Of a stretch of DNA of 48,364 bases, positions 6,099 through 23,926 are shown piece by piece. The position numbers and the translations under genes are program-made. Position 1 is the stretch's first letter. Each line of letters begins with the position of its first letter. The DNA lies in the NCBI GenBank assembly GCA_024225395.1, contig JAAEMR010000249.1, positions 1 to 48,364 on the forward strand, in the 5' to 3' direction. A model generated the notes under the pieces. It made no database searches and was not told where the DNA came from. It saw nothing but the letters and a program-made list of their open reading frames with translations. This DNA is from Gammaproteobacteria bacterium (GTDB lineage Bacteria > Pseudomonadota > Gammaproteobacteria > GCA-001735895).

Positions 6099-6557
6099 CT
6101 ATCCTTTTCCGGGACCTTTTCCACCATCGCCATCATTGCCTGGCTCATGCTCACGTTCGTTTTCAAACCCATTACGTTGCTCTTCCATTTCATGCTCCAT
6201 CTCAAATTCCATTTCATGTTCGTGCTCTCTATCCTGTTGCGGCTCCATAGCATGAGTTTGATCCTGATCTCTTAATCGATCACGGTCCATATCACCAACA
6301 CCTTCACCATCTCCGGCACCAGGTTCTTCATCAAGGTTTTTACGAACTCTATACCTGTTTTGATTAACATTTCTAACCTGCTGTCGAGCTTCTTCATTGG
6401 CAATATCAGGTAATTCTATCATATTCATTACGGCCTGGGATGAGTGCTCATTCATCTCCATAACCCGAATGGTAACCTCTTCATCAGATGCTCCCATCGC
6501 AGCGAAGGGTAATAATAACCCTAATGAGATGGCTATTGCTGTATTTAACTTTTTCAT
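6099..6557 (-). CDS. Secreted acidic His/Glu/Met-rich protein
   Basis: A 152-residue protein with a clear Sec signal peptide (MKKLNTAIAISLGLLLPFAAMGA). A short globular part (about 24-75) is followed by a low-complexity half dominated by Asp, Glu, His, Met and Arg, including EHEHEMEFEMEHEMEEQ (about 111-127). It ends in a Gly/Asp/Lys-rich tail. The spacing of His, Glu and Met suggests metal or cation binding, but no defined site can be named. A strong Shine-Dalgarno (GGAG, 8 nt before ATG) supports the start. It sits 16 bp after the anti-sigma gene and is probably co-transcribed, so it may be a target or a periplasmic sensor component of the sigma system. Confidence 0.7.
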   Translation of the reverse strand: MKKLNTAIAISLGLLLPFAAMGASDEEVTIRVMEMNEHSSQAVMNMIELPDIANEEARQQVRNVNQNRYRVRKNLDEEPGAGDGEGVGDMDRDRLRDQDQTHAMEPQQDREHEHEMEFEMEHEMEEQRNGFENEREHEPGNDGDGGKGPGKG

Positions 6558-7947: not shown

Positions 7948-10008
7948 TTAAAGGTGAAACACTCTGTCAGCAGTATTAATGGTTTCCTGTCGATGAGCGA
8001 TGATGATTCTTGTTGCTCTTAAATGATGAATATTGCTATTGATTCTTTTTTCAGTCTCTACGTCAAGATGACTGGTCGCTTCATCCATGAACAGAATCCG
8101 GGGATTGCTATACAAAGCACGAGCCAGCAGGGTGCGTTGTTTTTGTCCACCGGAAAGTGTGGTACCAAGGTCACCCACCAGGGTATTGTAATTCATCGGC
8201 ATATTCACAATATCATCATGCAAACAGGCTATTTTAGAACAGGCATGAACCCGACTATCTTCCGTATTATTATCAAAAAAAGTAATATTATCCTGAATTG
8301 ATCCACTTAGCAGAGAGTCTTCCTGCATCACTGCAGCAACCTGCCTGCGATAATTATCCATCCCGAACTCAGCCAGACAGACACCATCAATAATTATTTT
8401 ACCCTCCGTTAAAGGCAACAATCCGAGCATCGTTTTAAGCAGTGTCGTTTTACCACAACCTGAAGCACCTACAAGCGCAATTGAGTCGCCGGCTTCAATA
8501 CACAAATTAATATCTCTAAATATCCAGGGGTCATTTTCTGAATAACGAAACCCCGCGTTTTCCAGCTCTATTTTTCCTTTGACAGTCATATCACCCACTA
8601 TTGGGTGATCACTGTTTTCTGTTTTAGTTAATGCAATGTCAGATACCCGTTCAGAGTGCAACGACAGCATTTTAAGCGCAAAATAGATATTAATAAGCCC
8701 CGATGCTTTACCGGAAAACTGATCTTTGTAAGCCAGGAAAGCGAATAACATACCGATCGAAAAACCTCCGTCTATGATATGAATTGCGGCCATCCAGTAA
8801 ATAATGATATTGCCCGCCCCCATTAACAAACTATTAATCGCATCCAGCCCAAAAGTAAACTTGGCATCCTTGATGTCGGCATTGATATTATCAGTCACCA
8901 GGTTGTGCCATAAACTGTGGCGTAAATCTTCCTTGGCAAACAGTTTTATACCCTGCATCGAACGAATAGTTTCTAGGAAGTGTGACTGTAGCTTAGCCGA
9001 ACGAATAATTCTTTCTTCGTTAATATTTCTAATTCTGCGAAACGTCACGAACTTGATGAAAAAATAAATAAACAGTAGCGCAATCACCACCAGGGTTAAC
9101 TCAGCGTTATAGATAATCATCATGGCAAGCGTCGCTATAACCATGAAACCATCTAAAATTCCGGTGATCAGTGAACCTGTTAATGTTTCCTGGATTGTAC
9201 TGATGGATCCGAAGCGGGAAACAATATCGCCAACATGTCGCTTTTCAAACCAGCTCATGGGTAAACGAACCAGGTGTCGAAACAAACTATTTCGAACCTG
9301 TAAATTTAGATGCGTCGATAAATATAAGCTAACCCATGAACGTACGATATCAATAAACACCTGAATAACCAGTAACAGTAGAAAGCCCACGCCAAGCACG
9401 GTCATTAAATTCAAATCTCTGGACACCAGCACTTCATCTACAATTAACTGCGATAACATCGGAGAAATAATAGCTAACACTTCCAGTGCAAATGAGAAGG
9501 CCAGTATCTGTGCCAGGGTTGTCACCATGCCAGTGTGCTTGCCCCAGAACTGACTTATTTTAAATTTTTCTTTTTCTTCTTTTCGTTCGAACTTATCTGA
9601 AGGGGTTAGCTCCAGAGCCACACCAGTGAAATGTTGAGATATCTGGTTTAATGAAAATTTTTGCTCACCCCTGGCAGGGTCATGAATAGTAAAGCGGTTA
9701 CCCTTACATTTACTAAGAACCACAAAATGGTTTAAATCCCAGTGTAGTATGCACGGTAGTTTTAAATGATGAAGTTCATCAGGCTCAAGTCTCACGGCTC
9801 GATGAGTAAATCCCATGCCGGAAGCGGCCGCCATTACCTGCAACAGGTTGGCACCTTTAGCAGAGAATGAATAACGATATCGAAGATTACTTAAACTGGT
9901 TTTATAGCCATGATAATTAGCCACCATAGCCAGGCAGGTCAACCCACATTCGGCAGCTTCTGTTTGCAGAATAACAGGTACTTTAGTCCTTAATGAAAAA
10001 TCCAGCAT
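7948..10008 (-). CDS. Peptidase C39-type ABC exporter (bacteriocin/peptide processing and export)
   Basis: A 686-residue inner-membrane protein. The N-terminal C39 cysteine protease carries the full set: Gln15 in the oxyanion position, catalytic Cys21 (EAAECGLTC), His94 (LNHFVVL) and Asp110 (HDPARG). A six-helix ABC exporter domain follows (about 160-440). The nucleotide-binding domain has Walker A GASGCGKTT, signature LSGGQKQR, Walker B ILFMDEA and an H-loop IIIAHR. Relatives such as CvaB and LanT-type transporters cleave a leader after Gly-Gly and export the peptide. The HlyD-type adaptor is 54 bp upstream. No precursor with a double-Gly leader was found close by. The protease looks active, so a cargo is expected elsewhere or is unusual. 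Confidence 0.92.
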   Translation of the reverse strand: MLDFSLRTKVPVILQTEAAECGLTCLAMVANYHGYKTSLSNLRYRYSFSAKGANLLQVMAAASGMGFTHRAVRLEPDELHHLKLPCILHWDLNHFVVLSKCKGNRFTIHDPARGEQKFSLNQISQHFTGVALELTPSDKFERKEEKEKFKISQFWGKHTGMVTTLAQILAFSFALEVLAIISPMLSQLIVDEVLVSRDLNLMTVLGVGFLLLLVIQVFIDIVRSWVSLYLSTHLNLQVRNSLFRHLVRLPMSWFEKRHVGDIVSRFGSISTIQETLTGSLITGILDGFMVIATLAMMIIYNAELTLVVIALLFIYFFIKFVTFRRIRNINEERIIRSAKLQSHFLETIRSMQGIKLFAKEDLRHSLWHNLVTDNINADIKDAKFTFGLDAINSLLMGAGNIIIYWMAAIHIIDGGFSIGMLFAFLAYKDQFSGKASGLINIYFALKMLSLHSERVSDIALTKTENSDHPIVGDMTVKGKIELENAGFRYSENDPWIFRDINLCIEAGDSIALVGASGCGKTTLLKTMLGLLPLTEGKIIIDGVCLAEFGMDNYRRQVAAVMQEDSLLSGSIQDNITFFDNNTEDSRVHACSKIACLHDDIVNMPMNYNTLVGDLGTTLSGGQKQRTLLARALYSNPRILFMDEATSHLDVETEKRINSNIHHLRATRIIIAHRQETINTADRVFHL

Positions 10009-10062
10009 AAATCCCTTTTTTATTTTCAGTTGCTTGCTGTTATATATTAAAAAGTAAACTTT

Positions 10063-11313
10063 CTAGAACAGCTTTCCTGTTGTGCGATAGATAGGTTCCA
10101 GCAACAGTCTGTACAAAGGCACTGTATCAAGCTGAATATCCGCGGTCAGTGTCATTTCGGGAGTCAGTTTAATCTGCTGACCATAGGCAGAGACAAATTG
10201 TTGATCCAGTTTTACAGTTGCCTGATAGACAGGTTCATTATAAGTTAAAGAATTTCTGAGCTGGTTCGGGGCAACTACGGATTGACTGATGTTTTGCAAC
10301 TCTCCTTTAAAAGTGCCATAGCGCTCATAAGGAAAAGCATCATATCGAAGCATGACAGATTGACCCGTTCTGATTAGCCCAATCGAATGAGATGGAATAT
10401 ACAGTTCGGCATTTAAATCACTGCGTTCCGGTCTTAGTGTTAATAGGGGCTGACCCGCATTAATAAATTGCCCCTGCTTAACCAGAACATGTGTAACAAT
10501 TGAGTTTACTTCTGTTCTAACAATATAGTTTTGTTCAGCCAGCAGGTTTATTTCATTTTTTTCAATATTATTAATCTCTCGATTAAAGTCATACAGCTGT
10601 TGCTCACGTTGCAGTTCTAAAATACTGATATCGGTGGGCAGTTGAATTAACTGGTTAGCAAGCTGTTCTATGGAATTATTTAAATCAATGATCTTAGCTT
10701 TTTGTTTTAATACAGCCTGACGTTTTACATCGAATGAAGACCTGCTTATCAGGTTTTTCTGCACTAACAATTCAGTACGCTTCATTTCACTATTAATGCT
10801 ATCCAGAATTTCATTTTCCAGCACTAACTGCCTGGAACTTTTCACCCGCTGTCGATTAAACATTTCAATTTTATGTTGAATGCTTGAAATTTGTTGTTTT
10901 GATAGATCGACTGTTTTTTTATAGCTTGACCTTAACAGGTTTTTCTCAAGCGCTATTTTTTGCAGTAATTGATCCTGCAAATCTCCGCTAGATGAAAAAT
11001 TATTATGGGTAGAAATTAATAATAGATCAGTTGCATGGGTAACCAGTTGTTCCTGCTTAACATGACATTTACTCACAGTGCCCGATCTGGCAGCGTACAA
11101 AGTAATCAATCCTGAATCAGGAGAAAGCAAACCTGAAACAGCCTGCTTACGCGTATATTCCCCCCAGACCACGAATGACAATAGAGTGAGAACAATCAAA
11201 CTCGATAATAATGCGAGGACTTTAAACGACAGTGGATTAATAATCATCACAGAGCCAAACTGACTGCTTTTCTGCTTATCAATTACCTGTTGCCTGAATA
11301 GATCATTTTCCAT
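10063..11313 (-). CDS. HlyD-family periplasmic adaptor (membrane fusion protein)
   Basis: A 416-residue adaptor for the adjacent ABC exporter. It has a short cytoplasmic N-terminus, one membrane span (about 29-50, ALLSSLIVLTLLSFVVW), a lipoyl-like half (RSGTVSKCHVKQEQLV), a long coiled-coil hairpin (about 110-270), the second lipoyl half (SIVTHVLVKQGQFINAGQPL) and a beta-barrel domain ending LTADIQLDTVPLYRLLLEPI. This is the usual order for CvaA-like adaptors. The start at 11313 is supported by AGGG 9 nt upstream. An in-frame extension to 11454 lacks such a site. No TolC-type gene is in the window. Confidence 0.88.
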   Translation of the reverse strand: MENDLFRQQVIDKQKSSQFGSVMIINPLSFKVLALLSSLIVLTLLSFVVWGEYTRKQAVSGLLSPDSGLITLYAARSGTVSKCHVKQEQLVTHATDLLLISTHNNFSSSGDLQDQLLQKIALEKNLLRSSYKKTVDLSKQQISSIQHKIEMFNRQRVKSSRQLVLENEILDSINSEMKRTELLVQKNLISRSSFDVKRQAVLKQKAKIIDLNNSIEQLANQLIQLPTDISILELQREQQLYDFNREINNIEKNEINLLAEQNYIVRTEVNSIVTHVLVKQGQFINAGQPLLTLRPERSDLNAELYIPSHSIGLIRTGQSVMLRYDAFPYERYGTFKGELQNISQSVVAPNQLRNSLTYNEPVYQATVKLDQQFVSAYGQQIKLTPEMTLTADIQLDTVPLYRLLLEPIYRTTGKLF

Positions 11314-11329
11314 ATGAATTTTCCCTGGC

Positions 11330-11346
11330 CAAAGTTTCAAACTTTG
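11330..11346. promoter_or_regulatory. 17-bp palindrome just upstream of the adaptor start
   Basis: CAAAGTTTCAAACTTTG is a perfect 8-bp inverted repeat around a single C, ending 17 bp before the adaptor start codon. It could be an operator or a leader hairpin that affects translation of the export operon. No regulator is identified. Confidence 0.45.
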
Positions 11347-11643
11347 ATGAAACGGATAATATGTGCTGGAATATATTTTGGAAAACAGGATAGTTTTAAA
11401 GAGAGAGTATATAATCAGTATCCCTGAATCCATTTGCCTTCCATTTGGTAACACTCTCGACAGGAGCTAAACCAGGCACTCAATGAATATAAGCCATCAA
11501 ATAACTAAACACAATAAAAACATTTTTCACCACATAAAGAATGGAGTAAGCACAAACTACTGGCTATTCAGTTACCACGAGGGTGAAGAAAAGTTCGTTA
11601 ATGCTTTATAATGGACTAATAATTATCTAACCAGAATACTAAA

Positions 11644-13280: not shown

Positions 13281-15653
13281 GTGACTGAATTTGACTTACC
13301 TGAAAAAATAGATCGCTTCATCATCAAAGACATCCTTGGAAAAGGTGCCCAGGGAGTCGTTTACCTGGCTAGCGACCCTAGCCTGAACCGACAGGTTGCG
13401 ATAAAAGCAGTCACTTTACGTAATCGCCTGTCTCAGCAGGACAACATCGAAAATTTACTACAGGAAGCACGCACGGTCAGCCAGTTACAGCACCCTAATA
13501 TTGTTTCTATTTACGATGTTGGCAATGATCCGTTAGAACCCTACCTGGTGCTTGAGTATGTAGAAGGCGAAACCCTTTACAGTCAACTGAAAAATCAAAT
13601 CCCGCAACAGCAGATTTTCAATATTATGCGAGATGTATTATCCGGTGTTACCGCAGCACATAACGAGGGCATTATTCACTGCGATCTGAAACCCGCCAAT
13701 ATCATGATCACCAGACAGGGCCAGGCTAAAGTAGCTGACTTCGGTCTGGCATTACTGGCCAATAACCAGAACAAGGGGAATGAACAGCTGGCAGGAACAC
13801 CGCAATACATGGCACCTGAGTATATCGAAACTCGCAAGCATCAAACCGTATCCGATGTGTTTTCACTGGGTTTAATCTTCTACGAATTACTCACCAGAAA
13901 AAAAGCTGTTGACGCAGACGATGTCTATCAATTACTCAATGCCATCGCCAACAACCCTGTTCCACCGCCATCCACACAAAACAGTAATGTTGATGAAAAA
14001 ATGGATGCATTCATCATGAAAGCACTGGAAAAAGACCCGCAGAACAGATACCCGACAGCTGCCGAAATGCTTAAGGCTTTTAATGAAAACCTTGCACTGA
14101 ACGATGCCATAAGCCACAGCGACACCTCGGATGCTACGGTTCAATTCCTGTTACGGCGCATGAACCATAAAAAAGACTTTCCCGCATTTTCGAGAACCAT
14201 CAGTATTTTAAACAAAGCGTCCGACAGTGAGACCGAAAGTCTGTCTACGGTTTCAAATGCCATTCTTAAAGATATTTCTCTCACCAATAAAGTACTGCGC
14301 ATTGTAAATTCAGCTTATTACAGCCGGGGTGGTGGCAAAATTAGCACCATTTCACGTGCCGTCGTCATGCTCGGCATAAACCCGGTGAAAAGTCTGGCTG
14401 TCTCGCTGATGCTGTTCGAACACCTGCAAAACAAGTTGCAGGCTAACCAGTTGATGGAACATGCCATCACCTCTTTATTCAGCGCCATCATGGCCAATGA
14501 GCTGGCGCATTCACACCAGGTTAAAGAGCATGAAGAAGCTTTTTTGTGCGCACTGCTGCAGCAACTGGGAAAACTTTTAGTGCATTTTTACCTGCACGAA
14601 GAAAGCCTGGCCATCGATAAACAGGTGGAGCAAAATAATCAGCAGGAAAATACCGCGGCACTCAAAGTGCTGGGCACCAGTTATCACGCACTGGGTATGG
14701 CCATTGCCAGAGAATGGGGGTTTCCAGACCAGATTATAAACAGCATGAAACCTGTTGAAGAGAAACTACTGAACCAGAAACCTGAAAAGACAGCTAATAA
14801 ATTACGTGTCATTGCCAATTTCAGCAATAATTTAACTCAGGTATTAAAAAAGCCAAAAGAGCAACAGCCAGCAGCTATTGAAGCAGTTACTCAGCACTAC
14901 GAGAATGTACTATCGATTGATGATAAAAAAATAACTCAACTAATCGAAAGCTCACAAAAAGAATTTGCCGGTTTTGCCAAACTGATTAACTTCAATCTAA
15001 AAAAGAGCAAATTCTATCAGCAACTCACATCAGCCAATAGTGGCGAAATGGCTAAGGACAACAGGCAGAAAGCTGGTGATAAGGATGAACATGACAGTAT
15101 ACTGGTGCTTCAGGAAGACACTTCACAACAGGACAGCAAAAGTTCTGAAAAGGCACTGACTGATGGTATTCAGGATATTACAAACACCTTAACCGGCGAC
15201 GATGTCAGCATTAACCAGATCATGCAAATGATTCTGGAAACGATTTATCGAGCACTTTCCGGATCCAGGGTTTTACTGGGTCTTCGCGACAAAACAGGTA
15301 ATAGCATCAAGGGGAAATTTGGTTATGGTGAAGGTATTGAAGAACTGGTAAAAAGTTTTCATATTCCCCTGGCCTATGAGCCGGATGTATTCCATATAGC
15401 CTTCAAAAATAATGTCGATATTAAAATTGAAGATACTCATGATGCTAAAATTGAGGGTAAAATACCCACCTGGTATCATCGAAATATTGGTTCAAAATCA
15501 TTCGTGTTATTTCCAATCGTGATAAAACACAGTCCTATCGCCATCATCTATATCGACAGCACTCAATCACAAAGCATCACCATATCTGACAGCCAGATCA
15601 GCCTGTTAAAAACCTTACGTAACCAGGCCATTCTGGCAATTAAGAGTATATAA
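13281..15653 (+). CDS. Ser/Thr protein kinase fused to HDOD and GAF domains
   Basis: A 790-residue multidomain signalling protein. Residues ~10-275 form a Hanks-type kinase with P-loop GKGAQGVV (20-27), Lys42, Glu62, HCDLKPAN (133-140, catalytic Asp135), DFG (153-155) and APE (178-180), all intact. Residues ~290-490 form an HDOD domain (LSTVSNAILKDISLTNKVLRIVNSAYY). Its expected HD pair is replaced by QQ (ALLQQLGK), so phosphodiesterase chemistry is unlikely. A charged linker leads to a GAF domain (~645-790) that may sense a small ligand. No transmembrane span is seen. The start is GTG without a clear ribosome site. Substrates are unknown. Confidence 0.88.
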   Translation: MTEFDLPEKIDRFIIKDILGKGAQGVVYLASDPSLNRQVAIKAVTLRNRLSQQDNIENLLQEARTVSQLQHPNIVSIYDVGNDPLEPYLVLEYVEGETLYSQLKNQIPQQQIFNIMRDVLSGVTAAHNEGIIHCDLKPANIMITRQGQAKVADFGLALLANNQNKGNEQLAGTPQYMAPEYIETRKHQTVSDVFSLGLIFYELLTRKKAVDADDVYQLLNAIANNPVPPPSTQNSNVDEKMDAFIMKALEKDPQNRYPTAAEMLKAFNENLALNDAISHSDTSDATVQFLLRRMNHKKDFPAFSRTISILNKASDSETESLSTVSNAILKDISLTNKVLRIVNSAYYSRGGGKISTISRAVVMLGINPVKSLAVSLMLFEHLQNKLQANQLMEHAITSLFSAIMANELAHSHQVKEHEEAFLCALLQQLGKLLVHFYLHEESLAIDKQVEQNNQQENTAALKVLGTSYHALGMAIAREWGFPDQIINSMKPVEEKLLNQKPEKTANKLRVIANFSNNLTQVLKKPKEQQPAAIEAVTQHYENVLSIDDKKITQLIESSQKEFAGFAKLINFNLKKSKFYQQLTSANSGEMAKDNRQKAGDKDEHDSILVLQEDTSQQDSKSSEKALTDGIQDITNTLTGDDVSINQIMQMILETIYRALSGSRVLLGLRDKTGNSIKGKFGYGEGIEELVKSFHIPLAYEPDVFHIAFKNNVDIKIEDTHDAKIEGKIPTWYHRNIGSKSFVLFPIVIKHSPIAIIYIDSTQSQSITISDSQISLLKTLRNQAILAIKSI

Positions 15654-15723: not shown

Positions 15724-16374
15724 TCAACCCTGCTGCATCATCGGTTTGAAAAAGCCGGTAGCAAATTTAACCGCATCGGGCAAAGTGAAAATTTCACGAT
15801 TTTCAGCATCATCATTTAACCAGGCGGTCGCAGTTTTCTGATCCTTCAAAAATAACATTTCTGTACACAAACTATCCGCACAACTGCAACAGGAGCTTGC
15901 AGCCATCCAGTTCATTCCAAAATGAACGTCACCAACTTCATCCAAATTTACAATGTTCTGGTTATTTAACTCAATTCGAATCGGCTCTGCAGTTACTTCA
16001 CATTCCGACAAAATCACACTGGAACACTCAAACATTGAACTGGGCGCCAGCGCGTCCATCGCGCACATGGCATGAACTTCAAACCCATTTAGCTGTATCC
16101 GGTGCACCCGCTTTTCCATGGTAAACGGGTAACAGCCCTTCACTTCCCCGGAGTCATCCAGCGTTAACATATCCTGCTTTCCCAGCTTTGCAACAATGTC
16201 ACGTGCATCGCTATGAATAGCTTCCAGCTCACTCAGTGTTGCTGCCCGTCCCCTGTCATAAAAGCTATTCACAACAGCCAGATAAATAGTGGCCGAATCA
16301 ATATCCATATTATCCAGTGTGTTTTTAATCGGTAATATATTTTTAAGCCGTACGATTGCGTTCTCAACTTTCAT
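15724..16374 (-). CDS. Alkylmercury lyase (MerB)-like protein
   Basis: A 216-residue protein resembling organomercurial lyase. MerB uses two cysteines and an aspartate. Here HAMCAMDAL supplies the C-x-x-D pair (Cys104/Asp107 in this numbering) and AASSCCSCADSLC supplies the second cysteine region, aligned with the CC of MerB and carrying extra cysteines. The N-terminal half is the usual small helical domain. The start at 16374 is preferred because AGGA is well spaced. An ATG three codons earlier abuts that site. No merA, merR or merT is nearby, so a role in mercury resistance is not assured. Several MerB-fold proteins have other or unknown roles. Divergent from gshA. Confidence 0.7.
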   Translation of the reverse strand: MKVENAIVRLKNILPIKNTLDNMDIDSATIYLAVVNSFYDRGRAATLSELEAIHSDARDIVAKLGKQDMLTLDDSGEVKGCYPFTMEKRVHRIQLNGFEVHAMCAMDALAPSSMFECSSVILSECEVTAEPIRIELNNQNIVNLDEVGDVHFGMNWMAASSCCSCADSLCTEMLFLKDQKTATAWLNDDAENREIFTLPDAVKFATGFFKPMMQQG

Positions 16375-16438
16375 CTCTATCATCCTGTTTAATTAAAATC
16401 CACTAAGACTACAAGCCCCGTGAGAAATTTAAATGACG

Positions 16439-18838: not shown

Positions 18839-18878
18839 TTGAGTTAAATCAATGAATAACCCCTGAAAAGTTTATTAT
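18839..18878 (+). promoter_or_regulatory. FNR/Anr-like box and -10 element upstream of the NosL/ABC operon
   Basis: TTGAGTTAAATCAA at 18839-18852 matches the FNR consensus TTGAT-N4-ATCAA at all but one of ten defined positions. TATTAT at 18873-18878 is a good -10 hexamer. A start site 7-9 nt after it puts the box centre near -41, the spacing of class II activated promoters. The first operon gene begins at 18899. This suggests induction at low oxygen but no binding has been shown. Confidence 0.5.
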
Positions 18879-18898: not shown

Positions 18899-19219
18899 AT
18901 GCATTCACAATCAATGTTTCCTGTCATACGCAAGTCTGCGTTCGTTTTAATATTTTTTTTAACCGGTACACTGTTGATGATGCTAACAGTTATTGATGCT
19001 ATGACTAAGCAGAGTTCAACCAGAGATTCATTAAATCAACGAGCCATGCTGGTTAAAGAATTCGGGCTTTCAGACCTGGCACTTTCAACCGAGGCTCGCT
19101 ATACCCGCCACCTGACGCTGGCTGATCGGCATTCGGCTTTTCAGGATCACCCTACTTCCTTTGACCACTTCCCATCGGGTTCTATTTTTCTTCCACCTTC
19201 GCAACTGACACATGATTGA
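18899..19219 (+). CDS. Membrane-anchored hypothetical protein, first gene of the NosL/ABC operon
   Basis: A 106-residue protein with an N-terminal hydrophobic segment (about 12-34, SAFVLIFFLTGTLLMMLTVID) acting as an anchor or uncleaved signal. The remaining ~70 residues are polar and probably periplasmic, with several His (RYTRHLTLADRHSAFQDH, then FDHF) but no Cys. I do not recognise a domain. Its stop overlaps the permease start by 8 bp, so it belongs to the same transcript and is probably translationally coupled. His-rich character would be compatible with metal contact, which is inference. The Shine-Dalgarno is weak. Confidence 0.6.
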   Translation: MHSQSMFPVIRKSAFVLIFFLTGTLLMMLTVIDAMTKQSSTRDSLNQRAMLVKEFGLSDLALSTEARYTRHLTLADRHSAFQDHPTSFDHFPSGSIFLPPSQLTHD

Positions 19220-20342
19220 ATTTTTCCGCAAACAGGCGTACCTGATTGATTTCACCATGTCTTCTTTGCTCAGACGCAAGGGAAAGAATTTCGGGCTGCT
19301 GCTGGTTTACACCCTAATCGTATTCATGCTGGCCTCGGTGATGCTGTTTTCCCATTCATTGAGAAAAGAGGCAGGAATCATTCTGCAGCAATCTCCCGAA
19401 ATCATTGTGCAGCGCCTGGTTGCAGGCCGACACGCACTGATCCCTGCTGAATATATTCAAAAAATGGGAAGACTACGCGGGGTTACCAGCAAAAAAGGAC
19501 GACTCTGGGGGTATTTCTACAACCCTGTTGTCAAAGCGAACTATACCGTCATGGCTCCCGACCATCTCGACCTGTCAACCACGGAAGTGATTATTGGTGC
19601 AGGCATCGCACGTACTATCGGCCTGGGCATCGGTGATTATTTCACCATGAGATCAAATAACGACACCTTCTCCTTTCAGGTCAAGGACATCATTGAGCGG
19701 AATTCTGAACTGGTCACGACCGACCTGGTATTGATATCCCCGAAAGCTTACCGGGTGATCACAGGAATCCCGGAAGGACAGTTTACCGATATTGTGCTGT
19801 CCGTCAGGAACCCGCGTGAAGTTCGCAAAGTTGCTGAAAAACTGGTTCAAAAGCTACCGGATATCAGGCCTGTTTTGCGTGAAGAAATATTACGCACCTA
19901 CGACAGTATCTTTGCCTGGCGTCAGGGAATTGTATTTGTGCTACTCATTGGAGCTCTGCTGGCATTTGTTATTTTTGCCTGGGATAAGGCATCCGGCCTA
20001 AGTGCTGAAGAAAAACGTGAAATCGGCATTCTTAAAGCCGTGGGCTGGGAGTCCGCTGACATACTGCACATGAAATTCTGGGAGGGCATCATCATTTCCC
20101 TGAGTGCTTTCATGCTGGGTTATCTGGCGGCTTACCTGCACGTATTTTACAGTTCGGCCGTGCTGTTCGAATCCGTATTGAAAGGCTGGGCGACCCTCTA
20201 CCCACAATTTAAACTGGTTCCTTTTATCGATGGTTTGCAGATAGCCACACTATTCTTCTTCACCATTTTTCCCTATGTGGTGGCGACTATCATTCCCATC
20301 TGGAAAGCATCGGTAACAGACCCCGATGCCATCATGCGTTAA
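19212..20342 (+). CDS. ABC transporter permease, FtsX/MacB type
   Basis: A 376-residue inner-membrane protein with the four-helix FtsX/MacB layout. TM1 is at about 28-47 (LLLVYTLIVFMLASVMLFS). A ~190-residue periplasmic domain is followed by TM2 (about 236-256, VFVLLIGALLAFVIFAW), TM3 (about 285-308) and TM4 (about 345-368). The cytoplasmic segment EEKREIGILKAVGWESADIL is the coupling motif of this family. Such proteins are mechanotransducers that drive periplasmic events or lipoprotein movement rather than moving solutes across the inner membrane. Partner ATPase begins 5 bp after the stop. The context of thiol and NosL proteins suggests work on an envelope metal or lipoprotein client. Confidence 0.88.
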   Translation: MIEFFRKQAYLIDFTMSSLLRRKGKNFGLLLVYTLIVFMLASVMLFSHSLRKEAGIILQQSPEIIVQRLVAGRHALIPAEYIQKMGRLRGVTSKKGRLWGYFYNPVVKANYTVMAPDHLDLSTTEVIIGAGIARTIGLGIGDYFTMRSNNDTFSFQVKDIIERNSELVTTDLVLISPKAYRVITGIPEGQFTDIVLSVRNPREVRKVAEKLVQKLPDIRPVLREEILRTYDSIFAWRQGIVFVLLIGALLAFVIFAWDKASGLSAEEKREIGILKAVGWESADILHMKFWEGIIISLSAFMLGYLAAYLHVFYSSAVLFESVLKGWATLYPQFKLVPFIDGLQIATLFFFTIFPYVVATIIPIWKASVTDPDAIMR

Positions 20343-20347
20343 TCATC

Positions 20348-21025
20348 ATGCTCATCTCATTAAGCGACATCAACAAAGTTTTTAACCAGGGAAAACACAA
20401 TGAGTTTCATGCAATTCGTGATATATCCCTGCACATAGAAGCCGGGAAAGTGACTTGCCTGAAAGGTTCCAGTGGATCAGGAAAAACCACATTGTTATCG
20501 ATGATCGGTTGCCTTTCACGTCCAACATCTGGACGCATTACACTCGAAAATAAAATACTCTCCGGCTTACCAGAACGTTTTCTAACCGATATCCGACGTC
20601 ATACGTTTGGTTTTATTTTTCAGAAATTTAATTTACTTCAGGGCTTAAGTGTACTGGAAAACGTCATGTTGCCCGCCTACCCTCTTGGCCTGAATCATAA
20701 AGACCTGAAAGCATCCGCGCAGAAATTAATCTCACACTTTGGCCTCGACCGCGTCATGAATAACCCGGTCGAATGGCTATCGGGTGGAGAATCTCAACGG
20801 GTCGCCATTTGTAGAGCGCTTATCAACGATCCTCAAATACTGATAGCTGATGAACCCACTGCCAACCTGGATACCCGGTTATCACAGGAGTTCATGGGCT
20901 TGCTCGATGAATTGCGTAAGACAGGAAAAACCATCCTGATCACCAGTCATGATCCCATCGTCTTCAACTCACCTGTGGTAGACAGGATAGTCGAGATGCA
21001 AGACGGTCAAATCATGGAAAGCTGA
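20348..21025 (+). CDS. ABC transporter ATP-binding protein, LolD/MacB type
   Basis: A 225-residue ATPase. Walker A is GSSGSGKTTLL (about 39-49), Q-loop FIFQKFNLLQGLSVLENV, signature WLSGGESQR, Walker B ILIADEPTANLD and H-loop ILITSHD. The combination FQxFNLL...ENV and DEPTANLD is typical of the LolD/MacB/FtsE class that pairs with FtsX-like permeases, in keeping with the preceding gene. It sits between permease and polytopic membrane protein with 5-bp and 2-bp gaps. It is cytoplasmic, attached to the permease. Confidence 0.92.
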   Translation: MLISLSDINKVFNQGKHNEFHAIRDISLHIEAGKVTCLKGSSGSGKTTLLSMIGCLSRPTSGRITLENKILSGLPERFLTDIRRHTFGFIFQKFNLLQGLSVLENVMLPAYPLGLNHKDLKASAQKLISHFGLDRVMNNPVEWLSGGESQRVAICRALINDPQILIADEPTANLDTRLSQEFMGLLDELRKTGKTILITSHDPIVFNSPVVDRIVEMQDGQIMES

Positions 21026-21027
21026 TC

Positions 21028-22035
21028 ATGTTTCTAAGCCCCGCCATTCTTGCATTAATCCTGGTCTCAGCTGTGATCAGCCTGATGCTGATACTGGCCA
21101 GTGGTTTTGCCATCCAGGTATTACAGAAGTGGAACATTAACAGTGGCAGCGAGCTGCAGTTAAACCTTGAGAGGCGTACTTATTTGATCTCTACCCTGCT
21201 GATCTGGGCTTTTGCATCCGAACTGATTTCGTTGATGCTGTTTATTTACAATGCAGAATCCATGTCCGGACAGTTTGTCGGTGCTATGTGCGCAACCGGT
21301 GTGTTGAATGTCAATGAATGGGGCTGGCCGACTCTATTTCTTAAAATAGCCATATTCTTTAGCGGCACAATCTGGCTGGCGCTCAACTACCTGGACAACA
21401 AAGGCTTCGACTATCCGCTGGTAAGAGTTAAGTATCTTTTGTTACTGCTTATCGTGCCCATGGTGATCACAGAATTCTATATGCAAACCCGCTATTTCAT
21501 GGAAATGAATCCCGACGTCATCACTTCCTGCTGTGGCTCCCTTTTTTCTGTTGATGCAAAAGGTGTGGCCTCTGAAGTATCCAGCCTGACACCCCGACAG
21601 GCCATTATTGCAATGTATGGCTCCGGCCTGTTATTGATGCTCAGTGGAACCTGGTACCTGTTACGTAACAAAGGCGGTTTGCTATTTTCGCTTTTCGGCT
21701 TAACTGCATTCATCACGGCAATAATGTCAATCATCTCTTATATATCTCTCTATATTTACGAGCACCCGCATCATCATTGCCCTTTTTGCATTTTAAAATC
21801 CGGACATGATTATGCTGGATACACTTTATATATTCCGCTATTTCTGGCGACTTCTCTGGCATTGGCAGCCGGTACAATTTCATACTGGAAAAAGATTCCC
21901 AGCCTGAATTCATCAGTAGCAGTTTATGCGCCCAAACTGGTTTACCTGGCTTTGATTTTTTTCAATATTTTTTATATTCTGGCAACCTGGTGGGTATGGC
22001 AGTCAAACCTGACCATGGAATCGATATGGCAGTAA
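21028..22035 (+). CDS. Polytopic membrane protein with Cys/His metal-like motifs
   Basis: A 335-residue protein with about eight hydrophobic helices. I do not recognise a named family. Conspicuous residues sit in loops or helix ends: Cys88 (GAMCATGVLN), a CC pair at 168-169 (ITSCCGSLF), and His246, His248-250, Cys251 and Cys254 (HPHHHCPFC). Such clustered thiols and imidazoles are typical of copper, zinc or heme ligands or of a disulfide relay. The ATG lies 2 bp after the ATPase stop and the last codons overlap the thioredoxin gene by 10 bp, so it is part of the operon core. It could take electrons or metal to the lipoprotein thioredoxin and NosL proteins, as inference. No DsbD-type motif pattern was identified. 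Confidence 0.75.
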   Translation: MFLSPAILALILVSAVISLMLILASGFAIQVLQKWNINSGSELQLNLERRTYLISTLLIWAFASELISLMLFIYNAESMSGQFVGAMCATGVLNVNEWGWPTLFLKIAIFFSGTIWLALNYLDNKGFDYPLVRVKYLLLLLIVPMVITEFYMQTRYFMEMNPDVITSCCGSLFSVDAKGVASEVSSLTPRQAIIAMYGSGLLLMLSGTWYLLRNKGGLLFSLFGLTAFITAIMSIISYISLYIYEHPHHHCPFCILKSGHDYAGYTLYIPLFLATSLALAAGTISYWKKIPSLNSSVAVYAPKLVYLALIFFNIFYILATWWVWQSNLTMESIWQ

Positions 22036-22654: not shown

Positions 22655-23338
22655 ATGAGTAATCAACATAACGAAAACCGAAGGAAAGTGATGAAAATCT
22701 TTTCAGCCATAGGATTAGGCAGCATCAGCGGGAGCGCTTTGGCCGGCTCAAATATCGGTGCAATGCTCCCGGGCAAAGGATGGGTAAAAGCAAACGGTCA
22801 GGAATGTCAGGGCGATGGTACACCTTTACAGTTTATTCCGAAGAAGGCACCAGACGACAACCCGCTTGAAAATGAACTGGAGAAATACCCAAGATGTCCA
22901 TATTGCGGCATGAGCCGTAAAAAATGGCACCACAGTCGTCACCTGGTTCAATACGATGACAATCTGGTTGATGCCACCTGTTCTATCCATTGCCTGTCCA
23001 TCAGCCTGTCATTGAATATAGATCGTGGTCCTAAGGCTATTTATGCTGCTGACTTTGGATCAGACGCCAGCATCAAGCCATTGGTTAAAGTCGACAAAGC
23101 CAGCTATCTGATTGGATCAAAACTCAAAGGCACCATGAGCAAGCAAAGCAGAATGGCTTTCTCATCTTTCGACTCGGCTAAAGCTCAACAATCAAAAAGT
23201 GGTGGTGAAATGGGTGACTTCGACGACGCTCTGAGAGAAGCCTATCTCGGCATGGCCAGTAACACCACGATGATTAGAAAACGTCGTGCAGAACGCCGTA
23301 AAAAGATGATGAAAATGAAGATGAAAATGAAAGGCTAA
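22655..23338 (+). CDS. NosL-family protein with Tat-like signal and Lys/Met-rich tail
   Basis: A 227-residue exported protein. The leader NRRKVMKIFSAIGLG...SALA (about 8-30) carries twin arginines and resembles a Tat signal. The core shows the NosL metal motif CPYCGM (Cys81, Cys84, Met86) and a second cluster TCSIHC (Cys109, His112, Cys113). NosL binds Cu(I) and supports copper-centre assembly in nitrous oxide reductase. The C-terminus is unusual: RKRRAERRKKMMKMKMKMKG, a basic run with alternating Met that could contact copper or acidic partners. It lies 110 bp after the lipoprotein thioredoxin gene, separated by a hairpin, and upstream of a second NosL gene. Confidence 0.78.
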   Translation: MSNQHNENRRKVMKIFSAIGLGSISGSALAGSNIGAMLPGKGWVKANGQECQGDGTPLQFIPKKAPDDNPLENELEKYPRCPYCGMSRKKWHHSRHLVQYDDNLVDATCSIHCLSISLSLNIDRGPKAIYAADFGSDASIKPLVKVDKASYLIGSKLKGTMSKQSRMAFSSFDSAKAQQSKSGGEMGDFDDALREAYLGMASNTTMIRKRRAERRKKMMKMKMKMKG

Positions 23339-23425: not shown

Positions 23426-23926
23426 ATGTTAACGCATTTCAAAATATTCAAGCTGATAATTGCTTTCAGCTTTATCATTTCTCAACCGGCAATATCTGAA
23501 GTCATAGATCTGCAAAAACCGGGCGTTAATGATACCTGTCCAGTATGCGGCATGTTTGTGGCCAAGTACCCTGAGTGGGTAGCAACGGTTGTTTATAAAA
23601 CTCAACACGCACATCATTTTGACGGTGCAAAAGATCTTTTCAAATACCTGCAGGATTTACCCAAATGGGCCCCCGGGCATGAATTAAAAAATATCGTTTC
23701 AATTGGGGTTACCGAATACTATAGCCTGAGTTTAATCGATGCGCGCAAGGCTTATTATGTCATTGGTTCTGATGTGCTCGGTCCAATGGGGCACGAGTTG
23801 ATTCCATTAGAAACACTCGATGATGCTAAAGAATTCCTGGCCGATCATAAAGGCACAAAGATTCTGACATTTGATCAGGTAGATACTAAACTTCCTGCAA
23901 AACTTGATGATGGGAATTTTGAGTAA
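23426..23926 (+). CDS. nosL: NosL family copper-binding protein
   Basis: A 166-residue periplasmic protein with a Sec signal peptide (about 1-24). The mature N-terminus carries CPVCGMFV (Cys38, Cys41, Met43), the classical NosL site, then an alpha/beta core with HAHHFDGAKDLFKYL, an ALA-type segment YYVIGSDVLGPMGHELIP and a C-terminal acidic tail. Known NosL proteins are usually lipoproteins. This one has no Cys at the cleavage site and would be soluble. The gene is last in the operon, with AGG 8 nt before the ATG, and converges on the HDOD gene. No nosZ, nosD, nosF or nosY is in the window, so the client may be a different copper enzyme. Confidence 0.85.
   Translation: MLTHFKIFKLIIAFSFIISQPAISEVIDLQKPGVNDTCPVCGMFVAKYPEWVATVVYKTQHAHHFDGAKDLFKYLQDLPKWAPGHELKNIVSIGVTEYYSLSLIDARKAYYVIGSDVLGPMGHELIPLETLDDAKEFLADHKGTKILTFDQVDTKLPAKLDDGNFE

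Follow-up and report, generated by a model that had tools for sequence, protein, structure and literature searches.

The closest working analogue of the unit described here is FetABCDEF of Campylobacter jejuni, which acts on iron together with FetMP and to whose working that of the present unit is likened. Its single operon encodes an eight-helix protein, FetA, with periplasmic cysteine motifs, two ABC permeases, an ATPase and two thioredoxins, and fetA-D are required in low iron (PMC10783030). The permeases of Fet-related clusters are of the FtsX type. In Pseudomonas, the Zur-regulated PA4063-PA4066 cluster for zinc/cobalt contains a MacB-type ATPase and a permease as separate genes, together with periplasmic metal-binding proteins (PMC11481552). 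A further point of comparison is NosDFY-NosL, in which an ABC pair is combined with NosL, a Cu(I) chaperone that acts in the periplasm. NosL has been presented as a chaperone dedicated to N2O reductase.

The window analysed here, the whole 48,364-nucleotide stretch of a gammaproteobacterial contig (JAAEMR010000249.1), carries the operon of this unit. Its genes lie on one strand in the following order, preceded by a candidate regulatory site:

18839-18852, + strand: FNR-like palindrome TTGAGTTAAATCAA, 46 nt upstream of P106, one mismatch to TTGATNNNNATCAA; a weak, optional candidate
18899-19219, + strand: P106, a small protein that appears to have a single membrane helix at its N-terminus; conserved tail TEARYTRH...QDHP...HFPSGS
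19212-20342, + strand: FtsX/LolC/MacB-type permease (PF02687, E 3.5e-6)
20348-21025, + strand: LolD/MacB-type ABC ATPase (PF00005, E 1e-31)
21028-22035, + strand: eight-helix membrane protein of a family without a name, ATG start, 335 aa
22026-22544, + strand: TlpA/ResA-like thioredoxin lipoprotein with WADWCPSC (PF00578, E 3e-24)
22655-23338, + strand: NosLa, a NosL-domain protein with a Tat-like signal (PF05573, E 3e-11)
23426-23926, + strand: NosLb, a NosL with the Cu(I)-type motif CPVCGM (PF05573, E 9e-29)

The first five genes, from P106 to TlpA, overlap or are at most 5 nt apart. The thioredoxin and two NosL genes assigned to the operon by the initial annotation do follow 21028-22035 in the same direction; what that annotation missed was the upstream half, namely P106, the permease and the ATPase.

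The upstream genes identify the transporter. The permease model has helices up to residue 58, a mixed alpha/beta domain at 64-222 and helices thereafter, and it gave 65 matches in the PDB at E <= 1e-3, with LolE (E 1e-14) and MacB (4.5e-13) foremost and HrtB, from the heme exporter HrtBA, at 2e-11. The nearest solved relatives of the ATPase are those of MacB and LolD, and the two proteins are therefore a type VII ABC pair. Permease fold and ATPase family are thus shared with LolCDE and MacB, but the present unit differs from these in having a single permease gene, a constant eight-helix partner and a small histidine-containing protein. The latter, P106, has no match in Pfam; its alignment retains H71 (99%), H84 (95%) and H90 (95%). 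In the TlpA-like proteins the lipobox cysteine (97%) and both active-site cysteines (100%) are kept. NosLa conserves CPYCGM and TCSxHC, and NosLb matches a solved NosL (7og7, E 3e-8). Both contain a NosL domain and the CXXCXM copper motif characteristic of NosL (PMC6530538).

What, then, is the eight-helix protein? Searches of Pfam, NCBIfam, PHROGs and PDB sequences returned only sub-threshold chance matches, and neither it nor 41 homologues matched the VKOR/DsbB families of Pfam. PF10080 was likewise not found in the protein, in the homologues tested or in the genome of the window, and a search for plasmid-borne copies of the gene found none. An AlphaFold2 model (mean pLDDT 88.6, pTM 0.88) has eight long helices (5-34, 42-82, 99-123, 132-158, 189-213, 217-244, 263-289 and 291-325), in agreement with the approximate number first proposed. 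Foldseek found no PDB match to this model at E <= 1e-3. With VIA-align the rows listed were generic helical bundles at Z 9-15 (four-helix bundles and chains of GPCR fusions), which are treated here as a common helical arrangement.

The residues singled out by the initial annotation (C88, C168-C169, H246, H248-250, C251 and C254) are present at the positions claimed, and they occupy three loops:

21286-21291, + strand: codons for M87 and C88, both invariant, in the TM2-3 loop (predicted to be periplasmic)
21529-21534, + strand: codons for C168 and C169, both invariant, in the TM4-5 loop (predicted to be periplasmic)
21763-21789, + strand: codons for residues 246-254, HPHHHCPFC, in the TM6-7 loop (predicted to be periplasmic); the core is PxHHCPF[C/D]

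Among 90 homologues the five cysteines and H249/H250 are conserved in 100%, H246 in 96% and H248 in 97%. As the contig scan behind this set had YEHPHHHC among its baits, the count was repeated for 22 homologues that whole-sequence or profile searches of genomes had recovered without a motif bait. C88, C168, C169, H249, H250 and C251 are present in 22/22 and C254 in 21/22, but H246 is kept in only 10/22 and H248 in 9/22. The true motif is therefore PxHHCPF[C/D] and not HxHHHCPFC. Free variation of the Cys/His residues had been named as the outcome that would refute the initial reading; the five cysteines and H249/H250 are instead invariant or nearly so, H246 and H248 do vary beyond the nearest groups, and M87, which had been overlooked, is invariant as well. 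On these alignments, chance is excluded as the source of the conservation.

M87, C88, C168, C169, H249, H250, C251 and C254 all fall in loops 2-3, 4-5 and 6-7 and so on one face of the model. Lys/Arg residues average 12.1 on the opposite face vs 2.8 on the motif face, the difference being at least 4 in 41/41 sequences; under the positive-inside rule this predicts a periplasmic location for the motif face. The Met/Cys/His residues may form a single composite site. Two of the three motifs, however, fall within residues 161-190 and 241-260, where the model is less certain (pLDDT 51-72).

The position of the histidines bears on the suggestion of a heme- or cytochrome b-like electron-transfer protein. 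Conserved histidines in a polytopic membrane protein would be in keeping with such a role, but they are all confined to a single loop and none is found in a helix, which makes a heme-linked function unlikely. Neither a sequence match nor a clear fold match to heme proteins was found, and we regard this explanation as very improbable.

Conservation of the neighborhood was assessed at 53 loci whose flanks extend for at least 5.5 kb to both sides of the gene. FtsX and the ATPase are beside it in 53/53, and P106 is found in 52/53, almost always directly before FtsX. P106, the FtsX permease, the LolD/MacB-like ATPase and the eight-helix protein are thus the fixed core of the unit. NosL is nearby in 45/53 loci (in the other eight it is absent within 8 kb), TlpA in 44/53 and DsbD_2 in 38/53. 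The optional neighbors that recur are copper proteins: small TRASH-type proteins at 22/53 loci, a Cu P-type ATPase, above the NCBIfam cut-off, at 17/53 and SCO1/SenC at 14/53. TlpA is not near 9/53 loci, among them most of those from a second phylum, where P106, FtsX, ATPase and membrane protein are retained, usually with NosL.

Since invariant Met/Cys/His residues on the predicted periplasmic face are combined with a MacB/Lol-type ABC transporter that is always adjacent and a NosL that usually is, the protein most likely serves as the component that handles metal or thiols in a copper-delivery system not yet described. Our preferred reading, to which we assign a probability of about 0.5, is that a type VII (FtsX/LolD) ABC complex handles periplasmic copper and that this protein is its partner within the membrane. 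The metal or redox role first suggested fits the soft ligands on one face and the copper-handling proteins of the operon, but a metal transporter working alone is unlikely because the protein is always encoded with the type VII transporter.

The main competing explanation, and one that we consider rather unlikely, is a thiol-disulfide or quinone-linked redox protein working like DsbB/VKOR or CcdA/DsbD. C251-P-F-C254 and C168-C169 would swap disulfides and so shuttle reducing or oxidizing equivalents between membrane and partner (TlpA, NosL or a client), with the ABC pair driving or gating the exchange. A CxxC and a vicinal CC, all predicted to be periplasmic, are what such a relay would need, the frequent TlpA-like and DsbD_2 genes would suit it, and the Fet authors proposed a similar relay for FetA-FetBCD-FetEF (PMC10783030). 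However, residue 254 is Asp in the most divergent homologue, whose locus still retains FtsX, ATPase and NosL, and the loci lacking a nearby TlpA include most of those from the second phylum, which keep NosL. The Asp and these nine loci therefore lower the likelihood of the redox explanation without removing it; in addition, the two invariant histidines and the invariant methionine suit a metal site better than a thiol relay.

A copper site also raises the question of direction. Were the unit to clear excess periplasmic copper, the Cu P-type ATPase genes near some loci would be natural companions, and MacB and HrtBA are exporters among the type VII ABC transporters. Against this, the loci showed no recurring outer-membrane factor or MacA-like adaptor, and both NosL and Sco1 act in delivery. 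The FNR-like sites of some gammaproteobacterial loci fit respiration rather than copper stress, though weakly. When 0-1 mismatch is allowed, such sites precede the first gene in 5/84 relatives vs 0.5 expected, all of them gammaproteobacterial; several gammaproteobacterial relatives, but not the betaproteobacteria, have a palindrome of this kind before the operon (an exact one in L034). At two mismatches they are abundant by chance, and this evidence is only weakly informative; sigma-70-type promoters are fewer than in shuffled sequences and thus uninformative. Detoxification or export is accordingly given a low probability.

Homologues were found in 10/274 genomes of the class, in 8/398 of the phylum (one being a marginal partial match, E 9e-4) and in 7/199 of the second phylum, which was reached via a Candidatus Solibacter record. 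They are widespread among sulfur-oxidizing and denitrifying gamma- and betaproteobacteria, namely Thiodiazotropha, Sedimenticola, Chromatiaceae, Rhodocyclaceae and Gallionellaceae and symbionts of Lamellibrachia, Escarpia and lucinid clams. Sulfurisoma sediminicola and Lamprocystis purpurea are represented among the loci, as are relatives from Azonexus and Dechloromonas. This distribution bears on whether the unit could be a dedicated accessory of N2O reductase, giving NosZ a second copper route beside NosDFY-NosL. The genome of the window has a complete clade II nos cluster elsewhere, and in the class sample NosZ is present in 5/10 carriers vs 39/264 non-carriers (one-sided Fisher p 0.012, uncorrected for phylogeny). 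However, NosZ is found in 0/7 carriers of the second phylum and is absent from 16/40 of the carriers checked overall (24/40 have it), some of these genomes being incomplete. Conversely, many genomes, including one of the same genus (G154), have NosZ but not the gene, and NosL, NosF, NosY and NosD are all encoded within the nos cluster itself. An accessory role confined to NosZ is therefore, in our estimation, about as improbable as export.

NosZ was rejected as the sole or general client on these counts. A heme-copper oxidase was rejected as a universal client, as the most divergent carrier (G274, 98% complete) has neither NosZ nor a COX1 match, an observation from one genome. From the uneven distribution of NosZ and the lack of a COX1 match in G274 it follows that no single known client fits the distribution. 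As a separate observation, the nos cluster of the window's genome (L100, G000:C20:48000-65797) encodes, at the position of NosB, a 395-aa membrane protein without a Pfam or NCBIfam match.

How could the copper-handling complex of the preferred reading work? Gene order leads us to infer that the eight-helix protein is in complex with FtsX. Its invariant residues would form one soft-ligand Cu(I) site, probably with a redox-sensitive cysteine pair, and NosL would exchange Cu(I) with this site. Cytoplasmic ATP hydrolysis may be relayed through FtsX by mechanotransmission, as in MacB and LolCDE, so that the site is opened or its Cu(I) released. TlpA, or DsbD_2 and TlpA where both occur, would hold the cysteines reduced; TlpA is known to reduce cysteines ahead of copper insertion into CuA (PMC7558416). 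Where present, the Cu P-type ATPase could be the source of Cu(I) from the cytoplasm, and the final acceptor of copper probably differs by lineage.

Comparison with the described systems places the unit probably as a type VII ABC metal-handling module for copper with a new membrane partner. Like Fet, it combines in an operon an eight-helix, cysteine-bearing membrane protein with a permease, an ABC ATPase and a thioredoxin, but FetA has DUF2318 and YHS domains, and Fet has two permeases and, instead of NosL, Ftr1-type FetM and FetP. An hhalign comparison with two FetA proteins gave a probability of 1%, the FetA profile being shallow. PA4063-PA4066, to whose working that of the unit is likened as well, is a metal-handling module with the same separate ATPase and permease genes, but it has two soluble periplasmic proteins, and a polytopic Cys/His partner is not described there. 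Unlike in NosDFY-NosL, NosD is absent from the operon, NosFY are of another ABC type and are encoded separately in the genome, and carriers are often without NosZ. Families of the TlpA, Sco1 and CopA-type copper assembly proteins recur around the unit, yet its core is the ABC pair, P106 and the eight-helix protein. A literature search of partial coverage did not find a NosL-FtsX/LolD-TlpA cluster described. We tentatively propose, at somewhat less than even odds, that the four-gene core and NosL are a separate, undescribed ATP-driven copper-delivery machine of at least two phyla, in which the polytopic protein would hold periplasmic Cu(I) and the type VII motor would transfer it either to NosL or from NosL, serving enzymes other than NosZ.

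Elsewhere in the window, a protein with a MerB-type (alkylmercury lyase) domain is encoded at 15727-16383, which places it about 2.5 kb ahead of the operon; a structural relationship between NosL and MerB has been described (reference list of PMC7558416). A protein kinase-HDOD-GAF fusion protein lies at 13281-15653, and a C39-peptidase ABC exporter with an HlyD partner, a pair of the bacteriocin/peptide-export type, at 7948-11454. At 6099-6557, adjoining a sigma-factor-like gene, is a 152-aa protein that looks secreted; it contains a very acidic stretch rich in His, Met and Glu, EHEHEMEFEMEHEMEEQ, and has no match in Pfam.

In this unit NosL is paired with an ABC motor of another type, often in genomes without NosZ. 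If the proposal is true, bacteria would run a copper counterpart of the type VII modules for iron (Fet) and zinc/cobalt (PA4063-4066), NosL would serve more than NosZ, and a family without a curated name would gain a function. The invariant residues would then be exact targets for point mutants with which to study a type VII ABC motor acting on a metal site.
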